Positions 1 through 27,071 of a DNA stretch of 64,000 nucleotides are shown here, piece by piece. The notes beneath the pieces were generated by a model. The model saw only the letters and a program-made list of their open reading frames with translations, was not told the origin of the DNA and did no database searches. A program made the position numbers and the translations under genes. Source of the stretch: Fimbriimonadaceae bacterium (lineage in GTDB: Bacteria > Armatimonadota > Fimbriimonadia > Fimbriimonadales > Fimbriimonadaceae); the NCBI GenBank assembly GCA_019187105.1, contig JABAQM010000001.1:1240001-1304000 (forward strand). The letters are read 5' to 3'. The number at the start of each line of letters is the position of its first letter. Position 1 is the first letter of the stretch.

Positions 1-3000
1 GTAACGCCACCTCTCGTACTCGTCCAGAAGAGCCAGAACAGGCCCGGCCGCCGCAGGCCGAGGTCGACCCCATTCATATTGATCGGGTCGATTGCCGCGG
101 TCAGGGCTGCCTCGTTGACGGCCTGTTCGATCGGCACCGTCGCCTCGACCGTTTCCTCGATCAAAGTTACCGGGGCCTGAATGTTGATGTTCGCGATCGT
201 CCTGCCCTGCTCATCCAGTCCGTTGTAGCGGACCGAGAGGTTGTTCATGTCCTCCAACTCGGAGGTGAAGTACACCTTGCCGGTTGACGGCTCGACCTGA
301 TAGAAGGAGCCGGCGGGCATGCCCGTTACTTGGAAGGAAGTGATGCGCCCATCGATGTCGGTCTCAACTGCGGTAGGCAGCTGAATACCGAATCTGAGGG
401 TTCTCATGAAGGGACGCGAGATTTGAGTACCTTCGGAGGCCGTGCGCGTGAACGTGAGCAGGTAACGGTCATTGCGTACAGGATCGGGCGCCGCCGCACC
501 GGAGTTCTGCGAGGTACCCCAGTAGCTAAACCCGGCAAGATCGCTTCGCTCGCCATAGAACCGGTCGTCGAACACGAGCGTGCCGTTGCGATAGTTCGCC
601 GCCAAGCCCGTGCTAACCCGGATGGCGTTTGGCGCGCTAATGACTTCCAGCCGCATGTCGCGCGGGATCATCGCACCCGAGAATCGAACGGAACCGACCC
701 GTGGATCGACGTAGACCTTACCGCCCAACAGGCAGTCGTAGACCAGCGTGAAGCTGAGCGAGTCGTATTGTCGGCTGTTTTTGTCGATGATCGACGTTCG
801 GCTCGAGCCAACCCGACTGACGATATCCACGTTGCCAAGGTCCGCCTCGCGGGTCGACCAATCGATGCCGTTCGACCAATAGACGCCGGCAACCGGATCC
901 TGAACCAGGGCCGAATATCCCGTTGGGAACGTCCGCAGCCGGGGTCGCTCGCCACGCGGAGCCACGGGGAAGCCGCGTCCGTCGGAAACGAGCCTCATCA
1001 GGAAGGCTTCGCTCTGGGCCCGGCCGCGAAGTTTGGCCGTATACAGGAGATCGATGACCGCATCCGATCCGGAGTTACGGTATCGACGCACCTGGGCCGA
1101 CAGGGATGTGATCGACTCATAGCCGTTGCCGACCTCCAAGCTCCTCGGTCGAGACCACGTATTATTGTTGCCGGTGAAGGTCGCATTGAAGACCTGCGAC
1201 AAGCCGCCGGCGCTGGCGATGTAAAACACCGATGCGTTGTTGCCGACCTGGATGAGCGCAGGTCGACCCTTGCGGACTTCCGGATCATAGCCGTTGCCGT
1301 TGCTGTCGGCCATGGCAATCGGATCGCTAATCGAAATCGATCCATCCTGGGCGACCGTGACTCGTGCGATGAACAGCTTGCTGACGAGTTCCAGCGCACC
1401 GCGGGTGCTTCGTTTCATCGCCTCGCCCACGAATGACATGTAAAGATTGGTCTCGAAGCTCCGATTGCCAGGGGCATCCAGCGGATTGAACGGCGCATAG
1501 GAGGCAAAGGTCGGCGAGCCAAACTTGATCGACTCGGGGACGATCGACTCGCCGGTGGCCAATGGTCCGAAATGCACGTCCGGGTTGTTTGGATACGGGC
1601 CAACGCTCTTGCGGAACCAGGAGGCGCCGCTCACCGGAGCGAATGCGTTCAGATCGCGCATCGGGCTCGATCCCGGCGCTCCGTTTTGACCGGATCCGTT
1701 AAGGGCGGCAACGTAGATCCGCCACTGGTCGTTTCGAGTGCTCGGATCGGTGAAGTCGGTCTCCGTGCGATTGCGCGGATTCCAGCCAGGAGTGCTACCG
1801 CTCTCAAGTCGGTCACTCGACCAAGCTACAACCAGATTGCCGTTGCCGTCGCGGATACCGCTGGGTCCGCGGTTGGACCACAGGAACGACTCCGTTCCGT
1901 TAACGATGTCCTCGACCATCGGCGCCGACTTGGTGGTTCGGCGGTTGGTCAGACGCGCTTCGCGAACGGTGAACTGCAGAGCGAAACCTGGATCGGCGTA
2001 GGCGTCATCGCTGCCAAGCGCCAGGTTGTCGGTGCGATCTTCGATCACGTTGATGAGCTGACGGTAAATACCGGAGGCTGCGCCGATCGGAGCCGTTACA
2101 CCGACCTTCGGATCTCCCGGCGGGTAAGCGGTTGGGTCCAGATTCGGGTGGCTCGTATCGGCATTGATGCCGAGATTCGGATTCCGTCGCCGAATCGGAT
2201 TTACGCTCAGTCGGGTGCCCGCCGCATCACCAGGTCGAGGCTTCTGCAAGATGACGCTGCGGTTCGGCCCGATTGGAGGCGCGAAGCGAGGGTCTAGGTC
2301 GCTATGAAGGTGCAGAGGTGCATCCAGCCACGCCATCTGGTTCAGCGAAGGACCGAGCAGCGGCAACGGCGTGATGTTGGCGCCGAGACCAAAGCCTTTC
2401 GCCATTCGCACGTTGTAAAGATTCACGTTGCCGTCGTTGATGACGGTGAAGTTCCTAAAGAACGAGCTGGAATTCGTGGTATCGCCGTAGGTCGGATTCC
2501 ATGGGTTGAACGGCGAGTTCACATCCCATGGAGCCAGCGGGGTGTAGCCGCCGCCAGACGGGAGCGATCCAAGATCGATATTGGGCGTCGTGACCTGGAA
2601 GCGCTCGTCGATCGCCACTCTTGCGAGAAGGTCGAATTCGCGATACGCTTCGCTCGGAACGCCGCCAGCGAATTGCCGTCCGGCTTGGCCGATGTCGACA
2701 TAAACCGCCTGAGGACCACGATAGCCCTGACCATTCGGCGGTTGGAACCGCGCGATGTCAAACTGGATGTCGAACGGCGTGGCGGACAGCGACCGTGCCA
2801 GCCCCGCGTTGTAACCCGGGAAGTTGTTGTAGTCGTTCAGGTTCGCGATGTAGTTCGACGGAGGCACCAGGGAAACCGGGCCGAACAACGGATTTTCGAC
2901 GTCGCCGAAGACCTGCTTGGCAATCTTGATCTGATCACGCCGCAAGTCCGGGTAGTCCAGGCTGACGTTCGGGAAGAACGCCGGCAGCTCTTCGTAACTG

Positions 3001-6000
3001 GGGTAAAGCGTGCCATCGAGCGGTTTGGTAACCGCCGCGACTCCACCTTGCCAGGCCAGGTCGTTGATGGCAAACCTCACGTTGGAGATGCCGCGGTTCT
3101 CGCCAAGCAGGAGCACGAGCAGGCTTCGATCGTAAACAAGAACCTGGCTTGCGCTACTTTGACCGTGCGAGACTTCGTCACCTGGAGAGTTAAGGTCCGG
3201 CCCGAGGCCGCTGGTCAGGATCACCGTGTTCCCGTTAACCAGGTTGCCGTTGGCCTGCACTTCCGGATCGGTGAGAACGGTTGTCTTGCCAAGCGTCTGG
3301 ACGGTGGCCTTGTTCGTTCGAACTTCCACACCCAGTGGGTGAAGGAACCGAACGGCGTCCCGCTGGATTTCGGTCGAGGTCGAGCCACGATCCGGAATGA
3401 CCGCCCGGGTGATGACGGTGCCGTCTCCAGGCGCCGCCGCGTTGCCACCCGCTCCGTAGACCGGGAAGACTGCAAACGAGAACATCTCCTTGTCGGTGGG
3501 CTTGCTGCCCGGAATGAGGAACGGATCTACGGTTCGCCTTGCAGCGGCAGTGCCGGGAGCGTTGAACTGCGTGTCGATGCGATAGCCGTTTGCCGGCGGG
3601 GTGAATTTGGACCGATCCGGCAGATCGTAGGTCATCACATAGAGCGTTTCGCCGTATTCGAACGAACGTCGCGTACAGGCTCTGGATTCGCCGGCTGCTT
3701 GGATGTCGGTGTAGTTGAGCGTGCCCGCCGACAGCTTCTCCATGATCTTGTTGTATTCCTCGGGGACTACAAACGCGACCTTGGCGTTTTGAGCGATCTG
3801 GTCGAGAACGCCCTTGCTGGGATCGTTGGGAGAAATGTTCTCTATGAGCGGCGGTACACCCGGCGACAGCAGGAAGCGAATATCGCTGAAGGCGAATAGG
3901 TTGCCGGCGACGTCGCCCGCATAGAACCACACGTGAGCCGTCGTACTGTCGGGGTCCACAAGCGAGTCAGGCGCAGTGAGGCCACCGCCAATTGCCAGGG
4001 AACTGAGGAAGGCGCCGCCTTCGGACGTAACGCCACCGCTGTAACGGAACCCGTCCTTGTTGAGCTCGCTCATGTGGGCGAAGAACCGCTCGATGCGCCC
4101 GTCCAGGGTCGGGACCATCAGAATCGGTACGCCTCTGCCATCCGGCATAACGCCGGCACTATTCGGAACCCTAAGATTCGTAAAGGCAGGCGAACCGCCG
4201 GGAGTGCCGCCCAGCTCGGTCGATGTCCAGGTCGACGTACCCGTAGCGGCGTCGATAGCGTACATATTCCCCGCTCCGTTGACGGCAAAGACCGTGTCGG
4301 TCATACCCGTTCGGGGGGCAATATTGAGCTCGGAGGCTGAAACGGCGACGGTGGCGGCCGTGGTGTACCCGTTGACCGAAGGCACCGCCCCTCCGTCGAA
4401 GCTCCACACGAGAGCGCCGATCGACCAGTCCACGGCGTAGACGAAGCTACGCGAATCTCCGAACTTCAGGTCGGCGCCAAAGTAGACCTTGTTGAAGCGG
4501 ACCGTCGGCGTCATGCGGACCGCTCCGATGGTGGGATCGGTGAACAGCGGGTAGGCCCAGCGAACCGTCGTCGTTCGGGTGGTGGGATCTCCTACCGCAT
4601 TGAGAGCAATCACGCGTCCTTGGGTCGTCGGCACGTAGACCGTTGGCCTTGCCGGAACATTGCCAAAGGAAACCGAGCCTACGATCGGTCCCAGATTGCT
4701 GTCGACCGGAATCGCCGGATAGTCGTCGGGATAGCTCCACGCGCGGCTGGTGGTTCCGTCGCCTCGACCAAGCATTTCGATGCAATAGACTCGGCCGTTC
4801 TTCGTGCCGATGTAGAGTCGATCGACGTTGCCGGTGGGGGTTGGGTCGATCTGAACCCGAGCGATTAGGCCCGAGGACATATCGAAGCCGATCGGGTTCT
4901 CCGCGATTCCGTCAGGGCCATCCGCCCCGGCTGCGCGGTTGGGATCCTGGTTGATCGGTGCGAGCTGCTTTTCGCTTGGATAGACCCAGTAGACCGTCGT
5001 GCGTCCAGCGGCGTCGCCCTTGGCGTCCATGCAGTAGATGCGACCATTTTCCATCGCCACGACGACCACGTCGCGCTCGGCGGTTACGCCGTTGCTGTCC
5101 TTGACCTTTGCGCGAGCATAGATCGGCGTCGACGTGATCCGCAGGTCAGCCTGCTTTCGGAACCGGACCATGTCGGCGTAGACCTGCTTGCCGTTCGAAC
5201 CGGGACTCAGGTTCGTCACCACGACCCGAAGGGGGGCGGTGGCATTGTTGTTGGCGAAGCGCGTTTTCAGCGTCGTAAGCAATCGCACCCAGCCGCCATT
5301 CTTGCTCTGGTCAAGGGTCACGACGTAAGGCGTTGCGCCTTCGTAAATCTCGTACTGGACGTCGGTGGCGAGATTGCCTCGATCCACCGCGTTCGGCGGG
5401 AGCCATACCCAGACTTCATAATCGCCGTCGTTCAGCTTTGGCGCGTAGGTGAGCGTGGCGTTGGTGACACCTGAAGCGTTGGTGATCAGGTAGTCGAGCC
5501 CCTTGAAACCGCCAAAGATGTTGTTGCTGGTCCAAGCGCCGCTCTGGCTGATGCCGGAGCTCAGGTTGTCCTTGTCGATCGTAACCATGCTCCGGTTCTG
5601 GCCGGGCTGGTCACTCGGATCAGGAGTCGGAATGATGTTCGGATTCACCACCCAGTCACGACGCTCCTCGTTGAACGTCGCCACATCGGGATCCCTCAGC
5701 GGGCGTTTTGCCGGCCACGACCACACACCATTTCGAAATGCGATCGCGTTCGGATTCACCGTGGCGTAATCATGCGAATACGAGGAGACAATGCCGAGGT
5801 CGTAAGTGAAGATGGTGTTGCCGACTTGCACCGTGAACGGCTCGTTGCGTGCGGCAACGGTTCGCCACGGATACGTGTCGGGGACCGATAGGATGTGGAC
5901 GATCGGTGAGGCCAGGTAGCTGCCCAGTGAAGAAAACGCCGCCCGCGAAACAACCGCCGCGTCGGCATAAACGAGGGTCGTGCCTGGCACGTCTTCAAGT

Positions 6001-6734
6001 TGCCCGCCGCCATCTCGAGGCACGGTATTGAAAAGCTTGATGGTTACCTTGCCGCCGGCATCGACCCGGTACAGGGTATCGGTGGCGTAGCCGCCGGCGC
6101 CCAATCGCACAAGGCCACCACCGGTTATGAGCGTGTCGATAACCTCGACAAACGGTCCACCTTCAACACCGGAAATCTCGTACACGTAGTAGCGCTGCGG
6201 GAATCGCAGGAGCCGGTTGGCCGTCGTGTCGACATCGGTGGGACCGATCGGGATGTTGACGCTTAGGGCGATGTCATCGCCGGGAAGCAACGGGAAGATA
6301 GGCGAGTTCGTGAATTCCCAAGCGAACGTCTGCAACGTGTCGCCGGAGTTCAGCTTATCCCGAGGATCGCCGGTATTGGCGCTGGCGATCGTCGTGGTGT
6401 AGTGGTACTGCGGGTTGGTGATGCCTTGTTCGATCGCCAAGAAGGCTGCCACACCGGTAGGAATCTGCCAAGAACCTGGAGGAGCTTGAATCGCTCCCGG
6501 CTCCCAGTTGTCGATCAGACGCTGGACGTTGCTGGTCGGATCGAACCACCGCAGGACGCCCTTGCCGGGGTTGTAGTCCTCTTGGAGGCGGTTGTGCAAG
6601 CCGGTACGACCGGAGTTGCCTTGGTACGTCGTCCAAGATTGCGAGATCGCCGCGGAGGCGACGGCCAAGAGGGCCAGAACGACTCCGAGCTTTCTCCCCT
6701 TCTGCAGTTTCGTCAACATCGTTGATCGGTCCAT
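1..6734 (-). CDS. Giant secreted beta-propeller protein (PilY1-like role), C-terminus beyond window
   Basis: The frame is open without a stop from an ATG at 6734 to the left edge, at least 2244 codons. The N-terminus has a basic stretch and a hydrophobic core ending near residue 34 (LGVVLALLAVASA), a clear signal peptide. Residues about 382-525 resemble the beta-sandwich domain found at the C-terminus of golvesin and xanthan lyase (motifs YEVWVWLPP, NGGWVRL, VYADMVRF). Residues about 530-960 carry PQQ-like propeller repeats (RIYCMDAKGD, RVYCIEMLGRG, VYAVDWSIGALVWSFDGG, MYAIDAATGTSTW). The remainder is long extracellular-looking sequence rich in Asn, Gly and Thr that I do not recognise. It lies 15 nt after the stop of another giant propeller protein and at the end of a pilin gene run, so I infer a surface or pilus-tip role analogous to PilY1; direct homology to PilY1 is not shown. 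Confidence 0.88.
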   Translation of the reverse strand, partial: MDRSTMLTKLQKGRKLGVVLALLAVASAAISQSWTTYQGNSGRTGLHNRLQEDYNPGKGVLRWFDPTSNVQRLIDNWEPGAIQAPPGSWQIPTGVAAFLAIEQGITNPQYHYTTTIASANTGDPRDKLNSGDTLQTFAWEFTNSPIFPLLPGDDIALSVNIPIGPTDVDTTANRLLRFPQRYYVYEISGVEGGPFVEVIDTLITGGGLVRLGAGGYATDTLYRVDAGGKVTIKLFNTVPRDGGGQLEDVPGTTLVYADAAVVSRAAFSSLGSYLASPIVHILSVPDTYPWRTVAARNEPFTVQVGNTIFTYDLGIVSSYSHDYATVNPNAIAFRNGVWSWPAKRPLRDPDVATFNEERRDWVVNPNIIPTPDPSDQPGQNRSMVTIDKDNLSSGISQSGAWTSNNIFGGFKGLDYLITNASGVTNATLTYAPKLNDGDYEVWVWLPPNAVDRGNLATDVQYEIYEGATPYVVTLDQSKNGGWVRLLTTLKTRFANNNATAPLRVVVTNLSPGSNGKQVYADMVRFRKQADLRITSTPIYARAKVKDSNGVTAERDVVVVAMENGRIYCMDAKGDAAGRTTVYWVYPSEKQLAPINQDPNRAAGADGPDGIAENPIGFDMSSGLIARVQIDPTPTGNVDRLYIGTKNGRVYCIEMLGRGDGTTSRAWSYPDDYPAIPVDSNLGPIVGSVSFGNVPARPTVYVPTTQGRVIALNAVGDPTTRTTTVRWAYPLFTDPTIGAVRMTPTVRFNKVYFGADLKFGDSRSFVYAVDWSIGALVWSFDGGAVPSVNGYTTAATVAVSASELNIAPRTGMTDTVFAVNGAGNMYAIDAATGTSTWTSTELGGTPGGSPAFTNLRVPNSAGVMPDGRGVPILMVPTLDGRIERFFAHMSELNKDGFRYSGGVTSEGGAFLSSLAIGGGLTAPDSLVDPDSTTAHVWFYAGDVAGNLFAFSDIRFLLSPGVPPLIENISPNDPSKGVLDQIAQNAKVAFVVPEEYNKIMEKLSAGTLNYTDIQAAGESRACTRRSFEYGETLYVMTYDLPDRSKFTPPANGYRIDTQFNAPGTAAARRTVDPFLIPGSKPTDKEMFSFAVFPVYGAGGNAAAPGDGTVITRAVIPDRGSTSTEIQRDAVRFLHPLGVEVRTNKATVQTLGKTTVLTDPEVQANGNLVNGNTVILTSGLGPDLNSPGDEVSHGQSSASQVLVYDRSLLVLLLGENRGISNVRFAINDLAWQGGVAAVTKPLDGTLYPSYEELPAFFPNVSLDYPDLRRDQIKIAKQVFGDVENPLFGPVSLVPPSNYIANLNDYNNFPGYNAGLARSLSATPFDIQFDIARFQPPNGQGYRGPQAVYVDIGQAGRQFAGGVPSEAYREFDLLARVAIDERFQVTTPNIDLGSLPSGGGYTPLAPWDVNSPFNPWNPTYGDTTNSSSFFRNFTVINDGNVNLYNVRMAKGFGLGANITPLPLLGPSLNQMAWLDAPLHLHSDLDPRFAPPIGPNRSVILQKPRPGDAAGTRLSVNPIRRRNPNLGINADTSHPNLDPTAYPPGDPKVGVTAPIGAASGIYRQLINVIEDRTDNLALGSDDAYADPGFALQFTVREARLTNRRTTKSAPMVEDIVNGTESFLWSNRGPSGIRDGNGNLVVAWSSDRLESGSTPGWNPRNRTETDFTDPSTRNDQWRIYVAALNGSGQNGAPGSSPMRDLNAFAPVSGASWFRKSVGPYPNNPDVHFGPLATGESIVPESIKFGSPTFASYAPFNPLDAPGNRSFETNLYMSFVGEAMKRSTRGALELVSKLFIARVTVAQDGSISISDPIAMADSNGNGYDPEVRKGRPALIQVGNNASVFYIASAGGLSQVFNATFTGNNNTWSRPRSLEVGNGYESITSLSAQVRRYRNSGSDAVIDLLYTAKLRGRAQSEAFLMRLVSDGRGFPVAPRGERPRLRTFPTGYSALVQDPVAGVYWSNGIDWSTREADLGNVDIVSRVGSSRTSIIDKNSRQYDSLSFTLVYDCLLGGKVYVDPRVGSVRFSGAMIPRDMRLEVISAPNAIRVSTGLAANYRNGTLVFDDRFYGERSDLAGFSYWGTSQNSGAAAPDPVRNDRYLLTFTRTASEGTQISRPFMRTLRFGIQLPTAVETDIDGRITSFQVTGMPAGSFYQVEPSTGKVYFTSELEDMNNLSVRYNGLDEQGRTIANINIQAPVTLIEETVEATVPIEQAVNEAALTAAIDPINMNGVDLGLRRPGLFWLFWTSTRGGV

Positions 6735-6749
6735 GATAATTCTCAGTTC

Positions 6750-9700
6750 TTATCGGCGATCGCCAAACAGCGGCGCCATAATCCCCCTGGCGCCCTGGAC
6801 TTGGCTGATTTCTGCCTTGACACTTAGTGAGTCGAAGCCGAGGTTTCGCTTGTTCCAGTTGAACCCGCGGTCATTGTTCGTCGGCGCAAACTCGCCTTCG
6901 AGAAGAACAATCTCGCCATTGTAAACGCTCTTGTTGCGGGTGACTCCCTGCCAGCCGTTTACGACGACGACTTCTCCACTATCGAGACGGCGCGCATACA
7001 CCGGTCGTGCGTTCATCGGGTTGCTACCGCCAATCGTGCCGCTTAAACCTCCGTTTCGAATGGCGCGAAACGCTTCATTGGGGAGGTACCAGCGGGTTGT
7101 CCAGACGCCCGGCGCGGTTTCGATCACCTCGTAGACACCGCTGGAATCCGTGAACATGATCGCGATCACCGGGAGATTGTTGTAGGTCGTATAGCGCAGG
7201 GATACCGAGGTCAAGCCCGCTATTTTCCGCTCGACGGCCGGACGTGCCGGGCTATCCCAGGCGTTTGTCGCATCCTGGAAGAACGCATTGGCAGGGATGG
7301 CCGGAATCGCGACCTTCGTGATGACGGTCGTTTGCGCGCCGTTGTACAGCACGATGCCGCCGAAGCCACTTGAAGAGTCGACGTTCTGGTTGGTGTTGTC
7401 CAGGCCAAAGCTCGCCTTGCCGGGTTCGAAGTTGCCAAAGCCAAACGCGACCACCGGAATACGACCACCGGAGCCGTCGTCAACGAAAACTCTGTCGATG
7501 CTGTTGTAGGCGTACTGCTTGCCTGACAATTCGGCAGGCGTGTGCCAGAACAACACGCTCTGGGCCCGCTCGATTTGGTTCGGCTTGTCGCTCTGAGGAT
7601 CGACATACTCGACGGGTCCGAGAACGCGCCTTGAGACAGGGTCGACCTCATAGCGATCGATCAACTCGACGATTCGGTAGTTGCCGGCATCGGCAATCAG
7701 GTAGTGCACCCATCGCTCCAAGGGCCTTGGACTCGTCAGGTAGCTCGGATTCTGCTCGTAGCTCTCGTAAACGAGGATGTCCTTTGGCAGTCGAAGCGAT
7801 GAGCGAATATTGTCGGGAGCGCCGCTGGGACGATACTTCGGATCGAACTTGAATCCGGTTATGGTGCGAACCTCACGCCCAGCTCCATCGATCCGCATGA
7901 TGCGGTCGTTACCGTTGTCGACCACCCAATAACTGTTGGGGCCGACCTGATACACGCGATTCGGTCGCGAGAGCGCAATGCCCTTGCCCACCGTGCTGAT
8001 GGGGCCATTCAAACCGGCCTGCACTGAGCCGTCAACCAGCCACACCGGGTTGCCTGAAGCGTCGAAACGTCCGACCCGGCCCTCGTCGGCAACCATGAAA
8101 TCGCCGCGCGAGTAGCCATAAACGGTCGAGGTGCCCCACGTCACCAGGACGCCATCGCCTCCGACCACGCCCATGGCGCGCGGCTCGTCTACGGCCGTCT
8201 GAAGGAAGCGAACGGCGTAGTCCTCAAAAGATTGCACGCCAAACGCCTGTGGCCAACGAATCGCCGGGTTGATCTTGAACGGCGGGTTGTTGTTCATGTT
8301 GACGTCTTTGAACTGCTTGAGCTGGCTGTTCCATCGACGTCCGGTGGTGGCCACCAGGAACGGATCGTTTTGACTGATCGTGCTGTCCATCGCCGTCAGC
8401 AGTCCGTTGCGGTTAAAGAATCCTTGGCCGGCGAAGATGCCTGGCACGGCGCTTGATCCGGCAAGGTAAACGGTTTCGCCGGTCACAAGCGGCTGGGAAG
8501 GCGCATAAAGGGCGGCAAAGACCGTGTACCAGCGCAGCGGCGTCCAGCGGCCACCCGCAAATCCAGGAACGAAGCCCTGGTTCTGGGTGTCGATGGTTGC
8601 ATCGGTTAGCTCCGGTTCGACGATCGCGTCGCTTGCACCCTGGCCGCCACCGCGAACCACGATTGGCAGGTTGGTGCTGAGCGCATTTCGTACCTGACCC
8701 TGTTCGACGTCCATCATCGATTCGAGCCGTACCCGTGTGCGCCCCGTATTGGGGTCGCGCTCGATGGTGTATTGGCCCTGGCGAAGATCCGAATAGATTT
8801 CTGGTTCGGCCTTATTCGAGCTCCGCGCGTAGTCGCGCTGGCTCAGCACGAAATTGCCAGAGACGTTTTCCAGGAAGAACTCGGCCGGTTGTGGAGTCGC
8901 TTCGAAAGCGAGCAGGATCGCCATCGGGATTTCAAACGGGTTTCGCTTCAGTCCGGTGGCCGTCACATAGACGGTATCGCCCTTGACGGTGGGGCCGGAG
9001 GCAAAACACGGATCGTTTAGGGCGCCCCCAAGCGGGGCAAAGACCTTGCCAAGTTCATCTTCGTCATAAAGGGTTTCGTCGTAGGTAAAGCGGTCACCGG
9101 TGGAAATGCCGCTGTTGATCTTGATAACGTGGCGTCGGAACAGGTCCCATCGATAAACCAACTTAAAGCGGCCGCGACCGTCTTCGCGGATGCAGAACAG
9201 GGAACCGCCCTTGCTGCGGTCAATCGGATCGCCATTGGTGTTGATTGGGCTTCCCGTAACCACGAAGAGGTTGCCGGTGGGGCCAAGGGCGACTCCTCCG
9301 ATGATCTGGCGGGTTAGTCCGCTGTCGTCAGGCAGCTGCAGGTTTCCTCGGATGTAGGCATCGGCAGGGGCATTGTTGGAGCCAAATCCGACTGCACCCC
9401 AGTCGATTGTGTAGTCGAGTCGAATCGAAGCGTCGTCGAGTAGTGTCGGCGTCGAATTCGTCCAGTCCCGCCCCGATCCGGTCGCGGACAGGGGGATCGT
9501 CAACTCGCCGTTGCTGTCTTGAACCACGAGGGGACGGCTGCCATCGAAGAACGTCTTTGTAATGTCCGTGGAGTAGGGCTGTCCGTTCGCCTGCAGGACG
9601 GATACCTTCACGCCAAGGTGGCTGTTGCCACCAGGAAGGAAGATCGGGAGGCCCTGCTGAGAGGCTCGCGTGGTTAGCCGGAGCGCGTCCGGCTCTTCGG

Positions 9701-11534: not shown

Positions 11535-14500
11535 GGGTTCACTTCTCCGAAGTAGGCCAGCGTCGGGCTGACCGGTAGCCGCGGCATCGGCGGTAATGCC
11601 CAAATGCCGTTCCGGCGAATCATGTTGCCGAAGCTATCCGTTGCCAGGGCCAATTGAGGATCGTAGCTGATGATCAGGTTCGGTGCGTAGGGCCGCGTAT
11701 CGTCCATGTAGCGGGGATCGAACTGGTTCGGGTTGGTCAGGCTGCGCGGCACATGCTGTTCGGGAATCTGCCGTTCGCTGGCGCCTGCAAATCGGGGGAT
11801 CCAACCCCATCGCTTCATCCACTCGCCTTGCTGGGCGATTGCCGGCGGCATATTTTCGCTAACCGCTCCGACCACCGTGATCCGCACGTCGAGAGGTTCA
11901 CCAAAGAAGGGCACGTCCGGGGTGTTGCCGTACTGCTCGAACCGCTGACGTCGGAATTGATCCCGATCGCTCTGGGCGCCAAAGCGCGGGAAGTAGGTGC
12001 CAGAGCCATCCGAAGGTCGCGTGTCGTTGGTGTTGAAGTTGAACCAAGGTCCGGGAATGACAAAGAACGAGCCTTCCTCGGCATACATCGCGCATTCGAT
12101 TCGAACATCGCTTGGAGCGACCGCGGCTCGGGCAAGGTAGTAGTTCTGGGTCTGTTGGTTGCCGACGTTCTGCTGCCGTACCCGGAAAAGCGTCTCGTCC
12201 TGCATGGCCAGCGCGAACGGATTCGGCGTGTCATTCTCGATGGCATTCGTTCGGGTCATGCGGTGACCGTTTGCGGAGTAGCTCCACGCGCCTGGATCGA
12301 CCAGTCGATGCGCGATGGTCTCAAACCGGGGATAGGCATTGATGCCAGGGGTTCCAAGTCCGTAGATAGGCACGTTGACGCCGTTCACAAAGTAGCCTTG
12401 GGCCGCGTTGTGGATCACCGTACCCGCCGTCGCAAAGTCGAGTGCCCTCGCGAACAGGTAGGGCGCAGGAAGATCGGCCGTGCCGGGGTAACTTTGAGCC
12501 GCCACATCCACGCCTACGAATGCCGGACCTCCGTTATCCGCGGATTGCGACACCATCAGCATGGACGGAACCCTGATGTTCGAGCCGAATGCCGTGTACC
12601 GCAGCGCATATGGCTGCCAGTCACTCGGACCGAGCGCACCGGGAGTATCCGGATCGAGCAGGAGCTGACCGCGAAGGACAAGCTCCGGATTTTCCGTAGT
12701 CAGAGCCACGGGGTTAGGCGTGTTCGGCAATGCGTCCTGGTTCCCTGCCTGCGGATCCTCACCGGGGCCCGGGGCAAAGAAAGCGGTGGTATTGACGGCG
12801 ACATAGTCCTTCGCCATCATCATCAGCATCGAGGTGCTTTGCTCGTTCGGGCCAAGCATCTGGCCGTTCTCACGAACGACGCCTTTGGTGATGCTGCCCT
12901 CCACATAGATCGAGCCAAGGCTCACGATCGATAGCTGCAGATTGGTTGGAATCACGCCACGAACCCGCAGGTCGCCTTCGCAGAACAACACGCCGTAGAA
13001 CGGCAGACCCCGAGTCTGGAAGTCCTGGTCGCTGACGGAACTTGCATCCAATCCGATCAGGTCGGGATGCTGAATGCTGTTGATGATATAGACCTTGCCG
13101 TCGGCAAGGACGCGTCGGATTCGAAACTTGACTCTGGAATGTGTGGTCGCCGAGCCGTCCGCGTTTCGCCAGTAGCGGTTTCGGGAACGGCTATCGCGCG
13201 TGATCACAAAGCCGTCCGCCACAAGCTGGATGTGGGTGGCGAGTGGCCGATAGAACGGACCCTGCCACGCCCCGGTGCGGCTATTGGATGGGTTGAGCCA
13301 GTCATCTGGAAGGCTCTTGATGGCACCATCGATTTCTCGCTCCTCGTCGCTGGGCAGGTTGGCCCGCTCCGAAGTGTCGAGGTAGACGTTTCGGCCGTAG
13401 CCGTACCGTCCCGTATTGCGCCCGTTAACCAGCACGCCGCTGTCGCGGCTCATGCGCTGATAGCGATTCAAACGGGTCGCTGGGTCGATCGTCGTGATCA
13501 GCGGGGGCTCTTTTCGCCCGACCGCACGGGCGAATCCTTCGCCATCCGTACTCGCAACGCCATCGCGAATCACGCCATGGAGCGTTGTAAATCGCTCGCT
13601 ATCGCTGTTCAAGGACCCGACGCCGCCGTTGTTTCTAAGTTCGTTGGCGGCGGGGTCGCCTGGTCGAGTGACCCACAGAGCGGAGCTGTTGTTCGCTCCC
13701 TTCATCTCTCCGGCAACGAACCAGCCGTCGCCAATGGTGGGGTTGAGTAGGACGTCGTGCTCGCCATGAACCACGAGATCCGTATTGCAGTAAAGCGAAC
13801 CGCTGCCGCCAGGAATGGCGCCACCCCATCGCATGGCGATATCGATCGCCTTGCCTTCGAACATGACTCCAAGGCCGCCTGGCACACCAAGCTCGGCCGC
13901 ACGGGACCGTCTGTCCTTCGCGGTGATAAAGCGAGCCGTTTCAATGATGCCAATCGAGGCGAACGCGATCTGCTTCTTGCCGTCGACATTGTTGGAGGCG
14001 TCCAATTCGCGAAGCTGTCCCAACTCGGATCGAAACTCATTCGAGTTGGCAAAATTCGTCACCTTTGCGGCGCGGCTCAGCATCTGGGTCGGGTCCGGTC
14101 GGTCCGTTCGGAGCTCTCCTGCCCGACCGATGGTTTCGATCACGAGGTAGTTGCGCGCCTTGCCTCGCTCGCGGAGGTTGCTGCCGAGGCGGTTCTCGCC
14201 TCCGGCAAGGTCAAAAGGCGTGTATCGCACTCGAACGAGAGATCGACCCCGATCGAACGACATTCGAGTGAACGGCCCAAAGCCATCGGGGCCGCCCAGA
14301 TCCTTGACCGGATCGGCGTCGCTCAGCATCCCGAAGTTGGTACCGGCGCGGAGGTATAGGGCGTCCGGATCCTTTGTATAGCCCTGTGCATCGACGGCGA
14401 CCGCAGTGGGATCGGGCCGCCAGTCTGCCCCAAGCTCACTGTTGAGCAGTTGCGAATGGCAGTAGCGTGTCCCCGCCTCCGCAAGGTCTCCCGCCACCGT

Positions 14501-14653
14501 GCGTTTGGCGCCTCGCCCAGCGAACTGAATGTTCCGCGCGATGATGGCCGCAAAAGCCGTTCCCAGGATCAAAAGGACCCCGAGAATGATGATCACGATG
14601 ATCATGGTCTGACCGCGATCTCGTCGACGATGGTTGGCAAGCGGGATAGTCAT
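11531..14653 (-). CDS. PilX-like minor pilin / secreted protein with pilin-type N-terminal helix
   Basis: The product is 1040 aa. After a short basic leader (RRRDRG) comes a 20-residue hydrophobic helix (QTMIIVIIILGVLLILGTAF), typical of PilX or GspK-type minor pseudopilins. The Glu normally at position +5 of the mature pilin is absent, as is usual for GspK/PilX-class proteins. The large extracellular portion is unlike classical PilX (about 200 aa) and is not recognised. The ORF begins 20 nt after the PilW-like stop, and its TGA overlaps the start of the downstream giant protein by four bases, so the three are one transcript. The role is inferred as part of the pilus priming or tip complex. 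Confidence 0.85.
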   Translation of the reverse strand: MTIPLANHRRRDRGQTMIIVIIILGVLLILGTAFAAIIARNIQFAGRGAKRTVAGDLAEAGTRYCHSQLLNSELGADWRPDPTAVAVDAQGYTKDPDALYLRAGTNFGMLSDADPVKDLGGPDGFGPFTRMSFDRGRSLVRVRYTPFDLAGGENRLGSNLRERGKARNYLVIETIGRAGELRTDRPDPTQMLSRAAKVTNFANSNEFRSELGQLRELDASNNVDGKKQIAFASIGIIETARFITAKDRRSRAAELGVPGGLGVMFEGKAIDIAMRWGGAIPGGSGSLYCNTDLVVHGEHDVLLNPTIGDGWFVAGEMKGANNSSALWVTRPGDPAANELRNNGGVGSLNSDSERFTTLHGVIRDGVASTDGEGFARAVGRKEPPLITTIDPATRLNRYQRMSRDSGVLVNGRNTGRYGYGRNVYLDTSERANLPSDEEREIDGAIKSLPDDWLNPSNSRTGAWQGPFYRPLATHIQLVADGFVITRDSRSRNRYWRNADGSATTHSRVKFRIRRVLADGKVYIINSIQHPDLIGLDASSVSDQDFQTRGLPFYGVLFCEGDLRVRGVIPTNLQLSIVSLGSIYVEGSITKGVVRENGQMLGPNEQSTSMLMMMAKDYVAVNTTAFFAPGPGEDPQAGNQDALPNTPNPVALTTENPELVLRGQLLLDPDTPGALGPSDWQPYALRYTAFGSNIRVPSMLMVSQSADNGGPAFVGVDVAAQSYPGTADLPAPYLFARALDFATAGTVIHNAAQGYFVNGVNVPIYGLGTPGINAYPRFETIAHRLVDPGAWSYSANGHRMTRTNAIENDTPNPFALAMQDETLFRVRQQNVGNQQTQNYYLARAAVAPSDVRIECAMYAEEGSFFVIPGPWFNFNTNDTRPSDGSGTYFPRFGAQSDRDQFRRQRFEQYGNTPDVPFFGEPLDVRITVVGAVSENMPPAIAQQGEWMKRWGWIPRFAGASERQIPEQHVPRSLTNPNQFDPRYMDDTRPYAPNLIISYDPQLALATDSFGNMIRRNGIWALPPMPRLPVSPTLAYFGEVNP

Positions 14654-14673
14654 TAAGGCTTCTTTTCAGACTC

Positions 14674-16920
14674 CTATCTCAAGAAATTGCGGACGGTGGC
14701 CGTGCCCTTGACGGTTACGGTCGGCGCGTTGACGACCGAGCTGCTCTGTGGAAAGACGCGCATCGTCAAGTTGATGCCGATCACCTGGCGCGAATCGTAA
14801 TCCACGGCGACCACGTCGTTTGGCTCGGTAAATTGGAACCGGTACAGGACGTAAATGTTCCCTTGCGGAATCGGTTCGCCAAACGCGGAGTTCAGCTCGA
14901 CATAGCCGGCGCGGTACTGCGCCTGTAGCACCGCCGAAATCAGATTCTGGGCTTCGTAGCGTTGCGGATCATAAATCGACCCGTAATTCGGGTCCCCGTT
15001 ATTGGGAATACCAAACGGAAGCGGGCGCGCGATGTCGTACCAGTTGTCCGGCTCCCGCTGGTTCACGTAGTTGATGTAGTACTGGTTAGGGCCAACTGGC
15101 CGCTGGGTAACGCGGGAATAACGGACCGGCTGGCCATAGTTGGGTCCTGGAGCCTGGTCCGGTCCAACCACAACTTCCGACCCCGGCACGATCCTGGCGC
15201 GAGCGAATCCGGTCGCAGGATCGGGGCTGAGCGGGCTTGCGGTGCCATCCGCCTGCGGGGTGATTCGAAGGTCGATGTATCGCTTCACGGCACGCGCCGC
15301 GGAAAGATTGGTTCGCGTGGCGTTATTGCCCTGGACCCAGTTATCGTTGAAGCTCGGCCATTGTTGCCACAGCTTGTTGAATCGCTGGTTGATGTCGTTG
15401 TAGTCAAACCAGTCGCCGGCGCCGATGCCAGGGTCATTGTTCGGGGTGTACGCCGGTCCGGTGGCTTTGACGGGCAAGTTGTCCGAATCGACCGGGATCG
15501 CCGGGTTGTTGGCTCCACCGACTTCGTCGACGCCAAAGCTGGCTTCGACGCGGCCGCCGCGCGGGTTCGGATTGAGCCCAATAAAGGCTCGGCGCATGAC
15601 CGGATCATTGAGCCAGTTGGATCGGCTGTTGGCTTCATTGATGGCGAACGTGAACGGATATCGCCGCTGGTCGGCCGCCCCGGTCCAGCGGGCCGGATCG
15701 AGTCCCGCCGCGTACTGATAGGCAAACACATCGAACATCTCGACGCCTTGCGTGGCTTCGTTCGTGTTGGTTCCCGGATCGTAGTAATAGATGCTGAAGC
15801 CTGGCGGCGTCGTGGCCTGGCCACGGCCCGGAATGCGGCCGATGTTATAGGGGGTGCCGCTCATCCATGCTGGCCAAGGTCGCGAGAACGAGGCCGCATT
15901 TAAAGAGCCGGCGTTGCCGATATTCGGATACTGGGTCGGGTAGGTGCGAATAAAGGCCGACGTCCACGCTCCGAACTCCGTCCGAAACACATCCGGCCCG
16001 ACCTTCGTCGCGTTGTCGGATTCCTCGCCGGTACGATTCGCCAGTTGGCCACTCGCCGGTTCGCTGCTCACCCGGGTCGGCGTGAGCTGGATTAGCGGGA
16101 CGATCTGCGGCACGTTGCCGTCGTAGATCACCTGTCTCGTGCGGCGGTTGTAGACGGGGAGAATCATGTCGAACCGGCTGATGCTGGTGATGACGCTGCC
16201 GAGTCGGGTCCACTCGCGAATCCTGGCCGCCTTGGCGGGGCTGCCATCCGGAATGAAAAAGGCGGGATCGTCATACACCGGCTGGCCGGTCCCGGAATCG
16301 ACTTCGAAGAGTCTCGTGTTGACCTCCCAGCGGTTCTGGGCCGGGTTATAGACTCGGGGCTGAACCTCGGCCCGCCATAAGACGAACAAATTGTCGGCTT
16401 CACCGGATCGCGGCATCAGCAACCCGTCATAGGGGTTGGTGTAGGGTCGCGCGTTGTTACCGTTGAGCGGGTTTCTCAATCCGACCCAGTACCTAACAAG
16501 CGTTGATCCCGGTGCGACGGGGAGGACGACCTGGCCTTTGGGGGACCGGCGAGTCGGGTCGATTTTTCCGATATCCGGATTGAACTGCGGGTTCAGCGGG
16601 TCCCCTTGGGCGGGCATGACGATATCCAGCTTCACGTTCTGAAGCCGAATCGTCTCCGGATTCTGGTCGAACCCCGGCACCACGATGTCAAGCGACCCGG
16701 CAAGGCCGTCGTTGTCCCGGACAGCCGTCGCATTCGAGATTTCTCGCGTGAGCCGGTCGATCACGAACCGAGCGCGATCCTGGGCATCGGCAATACCCTG
16801 CGCCGCCCGTGTGAGGTTGAAGCTCTGCACGAGCGGGATCGAAATTATGCTGAACAGAATGGCAGAGATAGCCATGACGGTCAGCAGTTCGACCATCGTA
16901 AAGCCGGTTCGTCGGTTCAT
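14674..16920 (-). CDS. PilW-like minor pilin with type IV N-methylation site
   Basis: The product is 748 aa. It starts MNRRTG/FTMVELLTVMAISA: a short basic leader, Gly at -1, Phe at +1 and Glu at +5, the class III prepilin signal cleaved by PilD. Residues about 30-60 continue the amphipathic pilin helix (DAQDRARFVIDRLTREISNA), as in PilW and GspJ minor pilins. The remaining 680 residues are far longer than canonical PilW (about 300 aa) and are rich in Asn, Pro and Arg, with no domain I recognise. The ATG directly abuts the stop of the PilV-like gene (TAA then ATG, no gap), which indicates translational coupling. Confidence 0.88.
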   Translation of the reverse strand: MNRRTGFTMVELLTVMAISAILFSIISIPLVQSFNLTRAAQGIADAQDRARFVIDRLTREISNATAVRDNDGLAGSLDIVVPGFDQNPETIRLQNVKLDIVMPAQGDPLNPQFNPDIGKIDPTRRSPKGQVVLPVAPGSTLVRYWVGLRNPLNGNNARPYTNPYDGLLMPRSGEADNLFVLWRAEVQPRVYNPAQNRWEVNTRLFEVDSGTGQPVYDDPAFFIPDGSPAKAARIREWTRLGSVITSISRFDMILPVYNRRTRQVIYDGNVPQIVPLIQLTPTRVSSEPASGQLANRTGEESDNATKVGPDVFRTEFGAWTSAFIRTYPTQYPNIGNAGSLNAASFSRPWPAWMSGTPYNIGRIPGRGQATTPPGFSIYYYDPGTNTNEATQGVEMFDVFAYQYAAGLDPARWTGAADQRRYPFTFAINEANSRSNWLNDPVMRRAFIGLNPNPRGGRVEASFGVDEVGGANNPAIPVDSDNLPVKATGPAYTPNNDPGIGAGDWFDYNDINQRFNKLWQQWPSFNDNWVQGNNATRTNLSAARAVKRYIDLRITPQADGTASPLSPDPATGFARARIVPGSEVVVGPDQAPGPNYGQPVRYSRVTQRPVGPNQYYINYVNQREPDNWYDIARPLPFGIPNNGDPNYGSIYDPQRYEAQNLISAVLQAQYRAGYVELNSAFGEPIPQGNIYVLYRFQFTEPNDVVAVDYDSRQVIGINLTMRVFPQSSSVVNAPTVTVKGTATVRNFLR

Positions 16921-19026
16921 TTAGTTACTGCCTCTTGTCAGGAGGGTCGTTGTTTCGACTCGACGATAGCTCCTCATCCAGCGCTCAAGCGCCAAGTAGT
17001 TGTCCCGCATGTCGGCTGGATCGCGGCTGACCTTGAAGAAGGTCGGATTCCACAGGACCCGAACCGTTACCGATGCGCCGCGAACCCCTCGTACGGCGTA
17101 TCCGTTGGTGAAATCGAAGTACACATCCGTCTCGACATAGCCGCTGCCAAGCTGATCCCGCAGCTTCTGCTCCCAGACGTCGATATACGGCAAGTCTGGC
17201 GATCCGCCTTGCGGAGCCCGGATGATATATTCCTGGGCCTGCAGGACGTCCACTCTGCCGGTTCGCGAATCGTAGTACCAGACCTCGTCGATGATGATCT
17301 TCTTGTTGACATCCGACCAGGGGAAGTAGATACGTCTCGGCGAACCGAGCAGGTTCACATTGGTACCGCCGACGTAGCACTCGGCAGAACCTAGGTCATT
17401 GTCGCTGCCGATGTGTACGAGCCGGTAAGCCGAAGCCGCCTTCAGGACGTGAACGGCCCATTCACCGTTGCCTTGGTACATCGCCCTAACGCTACGTCCC
17501 TGAATATCATCGAGGCGCGTGACGGTCGGCTGCCAGGGGGCATTCGGATCGCCGGTCGGATAGACGATGTCCGCGGCCAGCAGGCCATTACCTGGATTAC
17601 CGTCCAGGTCGGCGAACGTGACGAGCCCGGTCGACTTGTCAACTTGGTAGCTGTTGGGCAAGATCACGCCGCCGGTTTCCAGGTCGAGCAGGACGAAGTC
17701 AGGCTCGTCCAAAACGTTGGGTCCGGCCGGCACACTCAGCCCGAGGCCCGGATTGTTCAGTCCGTCGACGTTAACGGAACCCTTAACTTTCAAGCTGCCA
17801 AGCAGGAGCTTCTGCTGATACGGCTGGATCGAGGGCACGCGGAAGTCATCCCGCATATTCCGCCAGTCGAACACGGTGTAGTCGGCACGAGCCACGAGCG
17901 GCTCTTTGCCTCCATTCGGTCGTTGCACATAGTAGTTGAAGGCGGCCGGGTTGACCAGCACGAAGCCCATATTGGAGCTCAGCACCGCGTATTCGAACGG
18001 ATCGGTCGAGAAGGAGCCCGGACTGGTGAGTTCGTTATAGACGCGTGCGACCCGGACAGAGCCCAGCATAGCCTGCAAGAAGTACTGCGGGTCGTAAAGG
18101 GCACGCCCACTCATGTCTTGCTGACCGACGAGCCGTTTAAGCGATACCAGCCAGTAGTTACCGACTCTGCGGAAGAAGCCGTTAGGATCGTTGGCATTGG
18201 CCGGATCGAGCGTGGCGCTAAGAATGACGTCGTACTGGCGAATGGAGCCGTTGTCGTCGTAATCGAAGCTGTAGGCGAAGCGGTAGCGGCGACGCAGGTT
18301 CTGCGACGGAATCCACACCTGGTCTTCGCCGACGAAGTCATAGTCGCCCGACGTGTCTTCGGCGGCAACGACATAAAACTGGTAGTTCCGGCCGATGGCG
18401 CCATTGGGATCAGGGCGAGGATAGTCGCCGGCCATGTAACCAACTCGGCGGACCATGTCATTGCCGTAGATCTCCAGCAGCCCGGCGTTCGATCCCGACG
18501 CGAAGTAGATCGGCGCAAACTGCAGAGAAAGCAGGCAACCGTAGATTCCGACGCCGTTCGCACCGACGAACCGCGGCGAGGGCACCACGCGTCCTTCACC
18601 GATGATTCGGCTGAACAGGTTGGCGCCGCTGATCTTGGCCCAATGGCCAATTTTGTTCCCGGTTAAGTTGATGACGTCGCCATCGCTGTCGATCCCTCGA
18701 ACGACTGAGGGGTCGAAAGGCATAAGATTGCGTTCCAAGTGTCGCGGATTCTTGACAAAGGCGATGCCGGTCGACACGTTGTAATACTCGACCGGAACGA
18801 TCTCCTCGGCAAGCAGCGAGGATTGACCCTTTAGCCGCTCGCTCTCCGAGCGTGCAAGGTTCTGGGCCACCGTATTGCCCCGGGTGGTTTTCAAGATGTT
18901 CAAACCCGTTGGAAAGATTTGAACGATCGCGAGGACACCAACAAGGAACACGACGATGACCACGAGGATCTCGACGAGTGTGCCTCCCCCTTGTTTGATT
19001 CGGTTTCCCCAGGCTTTTTTAATCAT
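16921..19026 (-). CDS. PilV-like minor pilin with type IV N-methylation site
   Basis: The product is 701 aa. The N-terminus has a long basic leader, then GGG/TLVEILVVIVVFLVGVLA: a prepilin peptidase site with Glu at +5 followed by the hydrophobic assembly helix. The segment NTVAQNLARSESERLKGQ matches the PilV/GspI-class pattern after the helix. The C-terminal 600 residues contain mixed beta-rich sequence without a recognised domain and are much longer than usual for PilV. It follows the major pilin-like gene after a 58-nt AT-rich spacer, and the PilW-like gene follows immediately. It is likely a substrate of the PilD encoded upstream. Confidence 0.88.
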   Translation of the reverse strand: MIKKAWGNRIKQGGGTLVEILVVIVVFLVGVLAIVQIFPTGLNILKTTRGNTVAQNLARSESERLKGQSSLLAEEIVPVEYYNVSTGIAFVKNPRHLERNLMPFDPSVVRGIDSDGDVINLTGNKIGHWAKISGANLFSRIIGEGRVVPSPRFVGANGVGIYGCLLSLQFAPIYFASGSNAGLLEIYGNDMVRRVGYMAGDYPRPDPNGAIGRNYQFYVVAAEDTSGDYDFVGEDQVWIPSQNLRRRYRFAYSFDYDDNGSIRQYDVILSATLDPANANDPNGFFRRVGNYWLVSLKRLVGQQDMSGRALYDPQYFLQAMLGSVRVARVYNELTSPGSFSTDPFEYAVLSSNMGFVLVNPAAFNYYVQRPNGGKEPLVARADYTVFDWRNMRDDFRVPSIQPYQQKLLLGSLKVKGSVNVDGLNNPGLGLSVPAGPNVLDEPDFVLLDLETGGVILPNSYQVDKSTGLVTFADLDGNPGNGLLAADIVYPTGDPNAPWQPTVTRLDDIQGRSVRAMYQGNGEWAVHVLKAASAYRLVHIGSDNDLGSAECYVGGTNVNLLGSPRRIYFPWSDVNKKIIIDEVWYYDSRTGRVDVLQAQEYIIRAPQGGSPDLPYIDVWEQKLRDQLGSGYVETDVYFDFTNGYAVRGVRGASVTVRVLWNPTFFKVSRDPADMRDNYLALERWMRSYRRVETTTLLTRGSN

Positions 19027-19084: not shown

Positions 19085-19990
19085 CTATTGCCGCTCCTGT
19101 CGCCAGGATTGCTCGGAGACGGTCCGGGAATCCATGTTCCGCGTACCACCACCCAAGAAGAGAACCATGTCCCTCCTCACGCGCTCAGGGCGATCATTGT
19201 CGTCGAGTTCGCGGAAGAAGCTGTTCCAAGTCACGACCGTGTCGTCAGGCGGGTCGGAATAACCCAGCTGTCGGGGATCATCGTTCGTGTTGCCGCTACC
19301 GAGGCCCCATTCCGTCCAAAACCGCGTATAGCGGAGCTCGGGCCGCAATTGTCCGGAGCCGTCGGGCAACTTGACTTCGGTGACGTCGTAGCCGTCGACT
19401 TTGTAGAAGCGGGCAGCCTCATTCTGGTCTGACGTCAGGCTTCCGTCCGGTCGGACCCACCCTGTGGATTCGTGACCGTACCGTTGCCGTGCGCCGGCTG
19501 GATCGTCATTCGAGTCGATCAAGCCGTCACCGTTCAAGTCGATTTGAGGTGCCGATCCCACCGCTCGCTGGTCCTTGGCGGGCCATTGGGCGAACGTCGT
19601 GGCATTGGTGGCAAACCGATTGTAGGCAGGCTGGAACGCTTTCCAGTCCACCACTCGCTTCGGATACAGGAATCCCGTCGCCTCGCCGATGGGCATGACG
19701 GTCGAACCGTCTTTATACGTATTCACGTACCCAAAAAGCGCCGGAGGATAGCCTCCTTGGTCAATCCGGTAAAGTTGCAGGGCCGTCCGGATCGAGTTCA
19801 TGTTGCTCATGTCACTCGACTTGTTGGCGGAGTCTTTAGCTCGCGCGAACACGGGGAAGATGATTGCCGCAAGAATGGAAATTATTGCGATCACTGTAAG
19901 CAGTTCTATTAACGTAAAACCTTTCTTGCGCTTCATGGCTTGCTGATTTGCGGATTCCCGTTCCGCTGTTTTTTGACGGGACCTAGGCAT
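19085..19990 (-). CDS. Type IV pilin / GspG-like pseudopilin
   Basis: The product is 301 aa from the chosen start. The segment MKRKKG/FTLIELLTVIAIISILAAII is a textbook prepilin cleavage site (Gly -1, Phe +1, Glu +5) followed by the N-terminal assembly helix. The following FPVFARAKDSANKSSDMSNM and NSIRTALQLYRIDQGGYPP match the GspG/DUF1559-type pilin pattern. Three starts are possible: 20026 (overlaps pilD), 19990 (preceded by GGGAGGGTGG about 9-12 nt upstream) and 19936 (shortest leader, no clear ribosome site). I favour 19990. The C-terminal part is longer than a classical pilin. It lies just after the prepilin peptidase gene and is the best candidate here for the major pilin. Confidence 0.87.
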   Translation of the reverse strand: MPRSRQKTAERESANQQAMKRKKGFTLIELLTVIAIISILAAIIFPVFARAKDSANKSSDMSNMNSIRTALQLYRIDQGGYPPALFGYVNTYKDGSTVMPIGEATGFLYPKRVVDWKAFQPAYNRFATNATTFAQWPAKDQRAVGSAPQIDLNGDGLIDSNDDPAGARQRYGHESTGWVRPDGSLTSDQNEAARFYKVDGYDVTEVKLPDGSGQLRPELRYTRFWTEWGLGSGNTNDDPRQLGYSDPPDDTVVTWNSFFRELDDNDRPERVRRDMVLFLGGGTRNMDSRTVSEQSWRQERQ

Positions 19991-25600: not shown

Positions 25601-25687
25601 CGAATAGACTCCACTCTCTCCGGTTATGTTGTCGGCATGCCGGCTATCCGGCACGAATGTCCCCCCGCGATGCAACTGCGGATCGGA

Positions 25688-25716
25688 CAAGTTTGGCACG
25701 TATTGGCCAAGTTTGG
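25688..25716. promoter_or_regulatory. Direct-repeat operator-like site upstream of pilB
   Basis: CAAGTTTGG occurs at 25688-25696 and again at 25708-25716, a spacing of 20 bp (about two helical turns). Each copy is close to a palindrome (CCAAACTTGG). They lie 88-116 nt upstream of the pilB start in the 218-nt gap between rtcB and pilB. A palindrome CGGCATGCCG sits closer to pilB. This arrangement is typical of a dimeric regulator site, but no regulator is identified. Confidence 0.35.
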
Positions 25717-25788
25717 TAAGTCGTTGGACGCGGAGGGTGGCTGAGTTCGTTCGGTTTTTAGCGGTTTTTTTGCGCCGCCCGGTTGACC

Positions 25789-25808
25789 GGGACGGTGTTA
25801 ACCGTCCC
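25789..25808 (-). terminator. Hairpin after rtcB
   Basis: A perfect 8-bp stem (GGGACGGT / ACCGTCCC) with a 4-nt loop begins 11 nt after the rtcB stop. There is no T-run on the minus strand right after it; a second GC-rich segment follows, so this may be a factor-dependent or processing hairpin and not a classical terminator. Confidence 0.45.
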
Positions 25809-25818
25809 GCAACGTAAA

Positions 25819-27009: not shown

Positions 27010-27041
27010 GTTCAGTTCTCCTTGCGAGGCGGTGTGGCAAA

Positions 27042-27071
27042 ACAAAAAACGTCGGGCCTTCCGCCCCGACG
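27042..27071 (-). terminator. Intrinsic terminator in the rtcB leader
   Basis: On the minus strand a 7-bp GC-rich stem (CGTCGGG / CCCGACG, 27050-27071) with an 8-nt loop is followed at once by TTTTTTGTTTT. This is a classical Rho-independent terminator, placed 33 nt upstream of the rtcB ATG and 29 nt downstream of a small ORF. It must be read through, or bypassed by another promoter, for rtcB to be expressed. Confidence 0.75.

Follow-up and report, generated by a model that had tools for sequence, protein, structure and literature searches.

Type IV pilus loci of Armatimonadota encode a putative tip module with a ComZ-like pilin and two giant propeller proteins

What caps the type IV pilus (T4P), and what arms it, outside the proteobacteria and a few models? 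PilY1 is known from a restricted range of lineages. The question is raised by a locus of a Fimbriimonadaceae bacterium (Armatimonadota; assembly GCA_019187105.1, contig JABAQM010000001.1), in which a stretch of 64,000 nucleotides, bases 1,240,001-1,304,000 of a 3.3 Mb genome and hereafter the window, carries on its minus strand three genes for oversized pilin-like proteins, here V, W and X, followed by two genes for giant propeller proteins, G1 and G2. From their place in a pilus locus, their conserved order and the predicted folds of their products, we propose with a probability of roughly 0.7 that these five genes encode the tip complex of the Armatimonadota T4P, and that the giants are PilY1 analogues for adhesion. 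The original prediction, made from the letters of the window, had suspected one pilin-associated complex, which gene order conserved across Armatimonadota supports; its further suggestion of an undescribed system or novel surface fibre was overstated, the genes being better read as a putative tip module in a T4P machine whose other parts are standard.

Five tandem genes inside a complete type IV pilus locus

The genes of the locus within the window are as follows (lengths in amino acids, aa; values are E-values).

23822..25822, minus strand: pilB, extension ATPase with MshEN and T2SSE domains (Pfam PF00437 1.2e-129, PF05157 5.5e-19)
22494..23768, minus strand: pilT, retraction ATPase (PF00437 1.6e-49), adjoining pilB, an arrangement that is conserved
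21245..22474, minus strand: pilC, platform protein (PF00482 1.3e-67)
20016..21116, minus strand: pilD, prepilin peptidase (PF06750 4.9e-31, PF01478 2.6e-12)
19085..19936, minus strand: pilA/GspG-like major-type pilin, 283 aa from MKRKKGFTLIELL (PF07963 2.6e-9; TIGR01710 7.5e-13, below its cut-off)
16921..19026, minus strand: V, PilV-like oversized minor pilin, 701 aa (TIGR02523, PilV, 1.1e-4, below cut-off; position conserved)
14674..16920, minus strand: W, PilW-like oversized minor pilin, 748 aa (PF07963 7.8e-6; position conserved)
11531..14653, minus strand: X, putative tip pilin, 1040 aa, without Glu5, ComZ-like by structural match of its AlphaFold model
6750..11534, minus strand: G1, giant, 1594 aa, with hydrophobic leader, DUF4159-like domain, 8-bladed propeller and NHL propeller
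1..6734, minus strand: G2, giant, 2263 aa, running 57 bp past the window start and completed from adjoining contig sequence

The gene run and its lengths are as originally predicted (701, 748, 1040 and 1594 aa, and "over 2240" aa for G2, whose stop codon lies 57 bp outside the window and whose full length is 2263 aa), and so is the tight coupling by ATGA, abutting stop and start codons and short gaps: V and W abut, 20 bp separate W from X, X and G1 overlap by ATGA, and 15 bp separate G1 from G2. The start of G1 is an internal ATG overlapping the stop codon of X, which gives the 1594 aa. The major-pilin-like gene said to head the run is present at 19085-19936, just outside the range of 1-19026 for which it was claimed.

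Past the window edge, G2 is followed by pilM, genes of 311, 259, 237 and 238 aa, pilQ and a dehydroquinate synthase gene. The 311 aa and 259 aa genes occupy the pilN and pilO positions and are assigned by position only (no Pfam hit), and the 238 aa product has a secretin-type STN domain. Type IVa pilus (T4aP) machinery is complete here by Pfam, with both ATPases, the platform protein, the prepilin peptidase, PilM and the secretin. This is one complete T4P locus, with V-W-X-G1-G2 embedded between pilBTCD and pilM...pilQ, and since pil machinery genes stand on both sides, the giants lie inside it.

The order of the genes is conserved across the phylum

We drew maps of the region for 20 further Armatimonadota genomes (21 with that of the window) and found X directly upstream of G1 in 21/21; pil machinery genes fell within the fetched region in 16/21, several of the others being cut by contig ends or by the choice of region. 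A second, named collection was scanned with a narrower G1 alignment, the phylum-wide alignment having no stretch conserved enough, and returned at least 30 loci. Among the matches listed, which include Fimbriimonadaceae and Chthonomonas, all belong to Armatimonadota except a weak one from candidate division WS1; among these, too, G1 has X before it wherever upstream sequence is available (27/27 loci), a count that is not independent of the 21/21 because the collections share some genomes (e.g., G099 and L115), and G2 follows in 22. Across 201 genomes, profile searches detected X in 186, G1 in 158 and G2 (queried with a 280-residue core of the family alignment) in 117, and 114 of these 117 also had G1; in the 141 high-quality genomes the counts were 136, 121 and 95, respectively. 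Neither X nor G1 matched any plasmid record.

Homologues mostly share 20-50% protein identity, and the ATGA overlap of X and G1 is seen in many family members. Retention of the order at such identities points to selection on linkage, and five proteins with same-order homologues across the phylum are not a chance run of open reading frames (ORFs). The giants are thus not proteins found mostly away from pilins, as the abutment of X and G1 in both counts above (21/21 and 27/27) shows, nor are the pilin-like genes one-off ORFs, given the presence of X in 136 of 141 high-quality genomes.

Two different V-W-X-G1-G2 loci (L128 and L129) occur in one metagenome-assembled genome (MAG), UBA2387, reflecting either duplication or two mixed species. 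Two reduced genomes of 1.5 Mb from the family of the window (G181 and G177; loci L148 and L149) encode V-W-X-like proteins of 262/492/599 and 318/538/685 aa, and neither G1 nor G2 was found in them, which makes them a naturally occurring contrast from which to judge what the giants do.

X resembles ComZ in its predicted structure

By inspection of the N-termini, Glu5 (class III signal) is present in V and W and absent from X; PF07963 matched W above its cut-off and V below it. In known filaments, the subunit without Glu5 caps the tip complex (PMC10191384). No Pfam or NCBIfam family matched X, and we therefore describe it from its AlphaFold model (predicted local distance difference test, pLDDT, 84.9; predicted template modelling score, pTM, 0.87), in which a 56-residue N-terminal helix (16-71) leads into a long beta-rich body.

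14441..14614, minus strand: prepilin cleavage site G^QTMII and N-terminal pilin helix, residues 14-71 (model helix; conserved GQTLII)
12779..13963, minus strand: beta-rich region spanned by the ComZ match, approximately residues 231-625 (model residues 231-1032 aligned to ComZ 129-513)
12110..12778, minus strand: jelly-roll resembling CBM35/CBM36, approximately residues 626-848 (VIA-align Z 6-7, weak match)

The GQTLII motif is conserved among X homologues, with G14 and Q15 invariant. Compared with solved structures by VIA-align, the model matched ComZ best (6qvi_B; Z 13.8, root-mean-square deviation 4.3, 257 residues aligned), the next match scoring 7.0. ComZ of Thermus thermophilus is a pilin with an inserted beta-solenoid, for which a tip position has been argued on structural grounds and which binds DNA (PMC6561018). 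A profile of 24 X sequences run against all PDB sequences detected no homology to ComZ, with no match at E <= 10, so that the ComZ likeness of X comes from the fold comparison, sequence and family searches having given nothing. By predicted structure, X would be a ComZ-type pilin, ComZ being a far better match than any other solved structure; of its former designation as PilX-like the pilin fold is retained, and the type is instead one known from Thermus. The jelly-roll reached Z 6-7 with carbohydrate modules, a level that can be coincidental.

The giants are predicted multi-propeller proteins

Hydrophobic leaders are visible by eye at the N-termini of both G1 and G2. We modelled residues 372-1571 of G1 (model numbering starts at residue 372), obtaining two propellers in tandem at pLDDT 84.0 and pTM 0.79; together with a PQQ propeller recognised in G2 by Pfam, the 8-bladed and NHL propellers of this model agree with the propeller and NHL-like folds predicted for the giants.

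11028..11159, minus strand: G1, DUF4159-like stretch, residues 149-192 (PF13709 4e-5, below cut-off)
10311..10352, minus strand: G1, conserved acidic loop DTDGNGNPDDGIVD, residues 418-431, like PilY1 calcium motif 1
8100..10490, minus strand: G1, 8-bladed BamB/PQQ-type propeller, residues 372-1168 (model residues 1-797; Z about 18-21 to Cake8 and BamB)
6891..8108, minus strand: G1, 6-bladed NHL propeller, residues 1166-1571 (model residues 795-1200; Z about 18-19.6 to NHL propellers)
5157..5579, minus strand: G2, Golvesin_C domain, residues 386-526 (PF25275 6.2e-12)
4170..4826, minus strand: G2, PQQ/BamB-type propeller repeats, residues 637-855 (PF13360 7.1e-8)

The DUF4159-like N-terminus (PF13709) was matched at E <= 0.001 in 19/25 G1 homologues. 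Structural neighbours of the first propeller include the designed Cake8 and BamB, the latter among the best natural ones. Early in that propeller lies the acidic loop, which in the G1 of the window has N for D at the fifth motif position. The strict motif Dx(D/N)xDGxxD, an EF-hand-like pattern also found in unrelated proteins, occurs in 34/45 G1 sequences, compared with a shuffle mean of 0.2, and in nearly all of them it lies at one conserved site. The pattern corresponds to what has been defined as calcium motif 1 in PilY1 (PMC13190605).

G2 homologues range from 1776 to 3590 aa; 18/21 have the PQQ-type propeller and 14/21 have Golvesin_C. In profile comparison with PDB sequences, the propeller repeats matched Cake, BamB and PQQ enzymes. 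Golvesin is listed among proteins with a carbohydrate-binding domain like those of CBM6, CBM35 and CBM36 (PMC9166713).

Several observations on G1 stand apart. At L114:10052-14833 it is in two reading frames (266 and 1327 aa), a break that may be genuine or due to a frameshift error; in G038 (L105) and G180 (L109) its relatives are about 2000 aa long and G2 was not found nearby; and in several other families (e.g., f21 and f27) the match lies mainly over the N-terminal third, a hint that the propeller part has been exchanged.

Likeness to PilY1 and other tip systems

In Myxococcus, PilY1 and minor pilins start the filament, stay at its tip for adhesion and act as a cork (PMC7541494), and PilY1 proteins share a C-terminal propeller while differing at the N-terminus (PMC13190605). 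The Armatimonadota locus is like the PilY1/PilC and FimU-PilVWX systems of Myxococcus, Pseudomonas and Neisseria in having a gene for a putatively exported non-pilin propeller protein directly after PilV-W-X-type pilins, and like PilY1 in a variable N-terminal part and, in G1, a calcium motif of the same pattern. It differs in that there are two such proteins instead of one, and neither matches the PilY1 family: PF05567 had no match at E <= 0.001 in 25 G1 and 21 G2 sequences, which upholds the earlier view that the giants are not recognisable as PilY1. PF05567 was also not found in 201 genomes, a search without positive control because the control genomes had no match either, so the direct scans of the giants are the better test. 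Where PilY1 has a 7-bladed propeller and a vWFA N-terminus, G1 is modelled with 8-bladed BamB-like and NHL propellers and has a DUF4159-like N-terminus; moreover, the Armatimonadota pilins are several times larger than those of FimU-PilVWX systems and their genes are embedded in the core pil locus. A strict fimU-pilVWXY1E operon model, the logic first seen in this gene order, is rejected: PilV-W-X-type genes followed by propeller proteins are there, whereas no fimU, pilE or PilY1 family member was recognised at the locus.

Other known tips share parts of this arrangement. The predicted fold of X, a pilin helix plus a long beta-rich domain, resembles that of ComZ from T. thermophilus (6qvi), but X is about twice as long, has the extra jelly-roll like a carbohydrate-binding module (CBM) and is followed by two giants. 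The GspI-GspJ-GspK set of the type II secretion system (T2SS) is likewise a three-gene tip set ending in a capping subunit without Glu5, although V-W-X are far larger and belong to a machine in which PilT, PilM and the giants also take part. Modular minor pilins such as PilB/PilC of Streptococcus sanguinis show the same principle of extra modules on pilins making the tip adhesive, in a monoderm system without non-pilin propeller proteins.

A proposed tip complex and its rivals

We propose that V and W, carrying Glu5, and X, a ComZ-like and presumably capping subunit without it, would start the filament at a platform of PilB, PilC, PilM, PilN and PilO. The giants would be exported and sit on X, in the place of PilY1 in proteobacteria, pass out through the secretin PilQ as the filament grows and remain at its distal end, where they may form a large head of several propellers for binding to surfaces or polysaccharides; PilT would retract the filament. 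Fimbriimonas ginsengisoli, a cultured soil bacterium which has fimbriae and is non-motile, is thought to use its pili for attachment (PMC4072686). Three observations weigh against this proposal. The secretin would have to pass two giants of roughly 170 and 245 kDa; the seven-bladed PilY1 structure 3HX6 is not among the 50 structural matches listed for G1, which excludes nothing; and several lineages (families f6, f12, f20, f22 and f30, as well as the 1.5 Mb clade g15) have V-W-X loci in which no giants were detected. The last of these makes the giants a lineage-dependent addition rather than a universal part of the machine, and we dropped the idea that they are essential for all Armatimonadota pili.

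The same genes could be read as a T2SS exporting the giants as soluble or cell-surface cargo rather than as filament parts. These components are common to T2SS and T4P, the pilA of this locus scores to GspG, 21 genes of F. ginsengisoli were listed as T2SS in its genome paper (PMC4072686), and secreted T2SS effectors contact the same HIJK tip complex (PMC10191384). We nevertheless consider this unlikely, as it is T4aP that typically have pilT, for retraction, and a separate pilM, and the conserved abutment of giant and X, with the ATGA overlap in many members, favours a stoichiometric complex over cargo. Another reading takes the giants for envelope proteins, such as periplasmic scaffolds like BamB, that merely sit in a pilus operon. 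It seems very improbable: BamB is indeed close to the first G1 propeller, and sharing an operon is by itself no proof of a complex, but the place beside X is kept across most of the phylum at only 20-50% identity, and the reduced g15 genomes have neither giant while their V-W-X are shortened.

A related question is what such a tip would bind. It might act chiefly as the DNA receptor of natural competence, a role proposed for ComZ, with the giants enlarging or regulating it, and both the demonstrated DNA binding of ComZ (PMC6561018), which X resembles, and a ComEC homologue in the genome would fit. ComEC is, however, near-universal (10/14 control genomes) and hence says little, and the CBM-like modules, one in G2 and a weakly matched one in X, speak for glycans over DNA as ligands. 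We also know of no giant partners of ComZ, and we regard a DNA receptor as distinctly unlikely. For the adhesive tip complex that we prefer, the chances are about even that in most of the phylum a ComZ-like pilin makes up the T4P tip together with two giant multi-propeller proteins of an origin independent of PilY1, in a tip head far larger than any described and probably for gripping polysaccharide surfaces.

A search of open-licence papers found no description of G1, G2, X or of T4P tips in Armatimonadota. The machine itself is of a known kind; what appears unreported is limited to the giants, as proteins in the PilY1 position, and to their pairing with a ComZ-type pilin. If the proposal is true, a conserved and sharply bounded tip module with giant-less natural variants, in a phylum that has been little studied, would show how pilus tips evolve and whether unrelated propeller proteins can fill the role of PilY1. 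ComZ, so far a Thermus oddity, is linked by predicted structure to a second phylum.

Other features of the locus and genome

An RtcB-family RNA ligase gene (25819-27045 of the window) ends at the start of pilB with a 4-base overlap and is possibly co-transcribed with the pil locus. The whole genome G000 encodes 46 proteins with an N-terminal pilin methylation motif and has four PilM-like matches; many of its pilin-like genes are scattered away from the pil locus, as in F. ginsengisoli with its 79 PulG-like genes.

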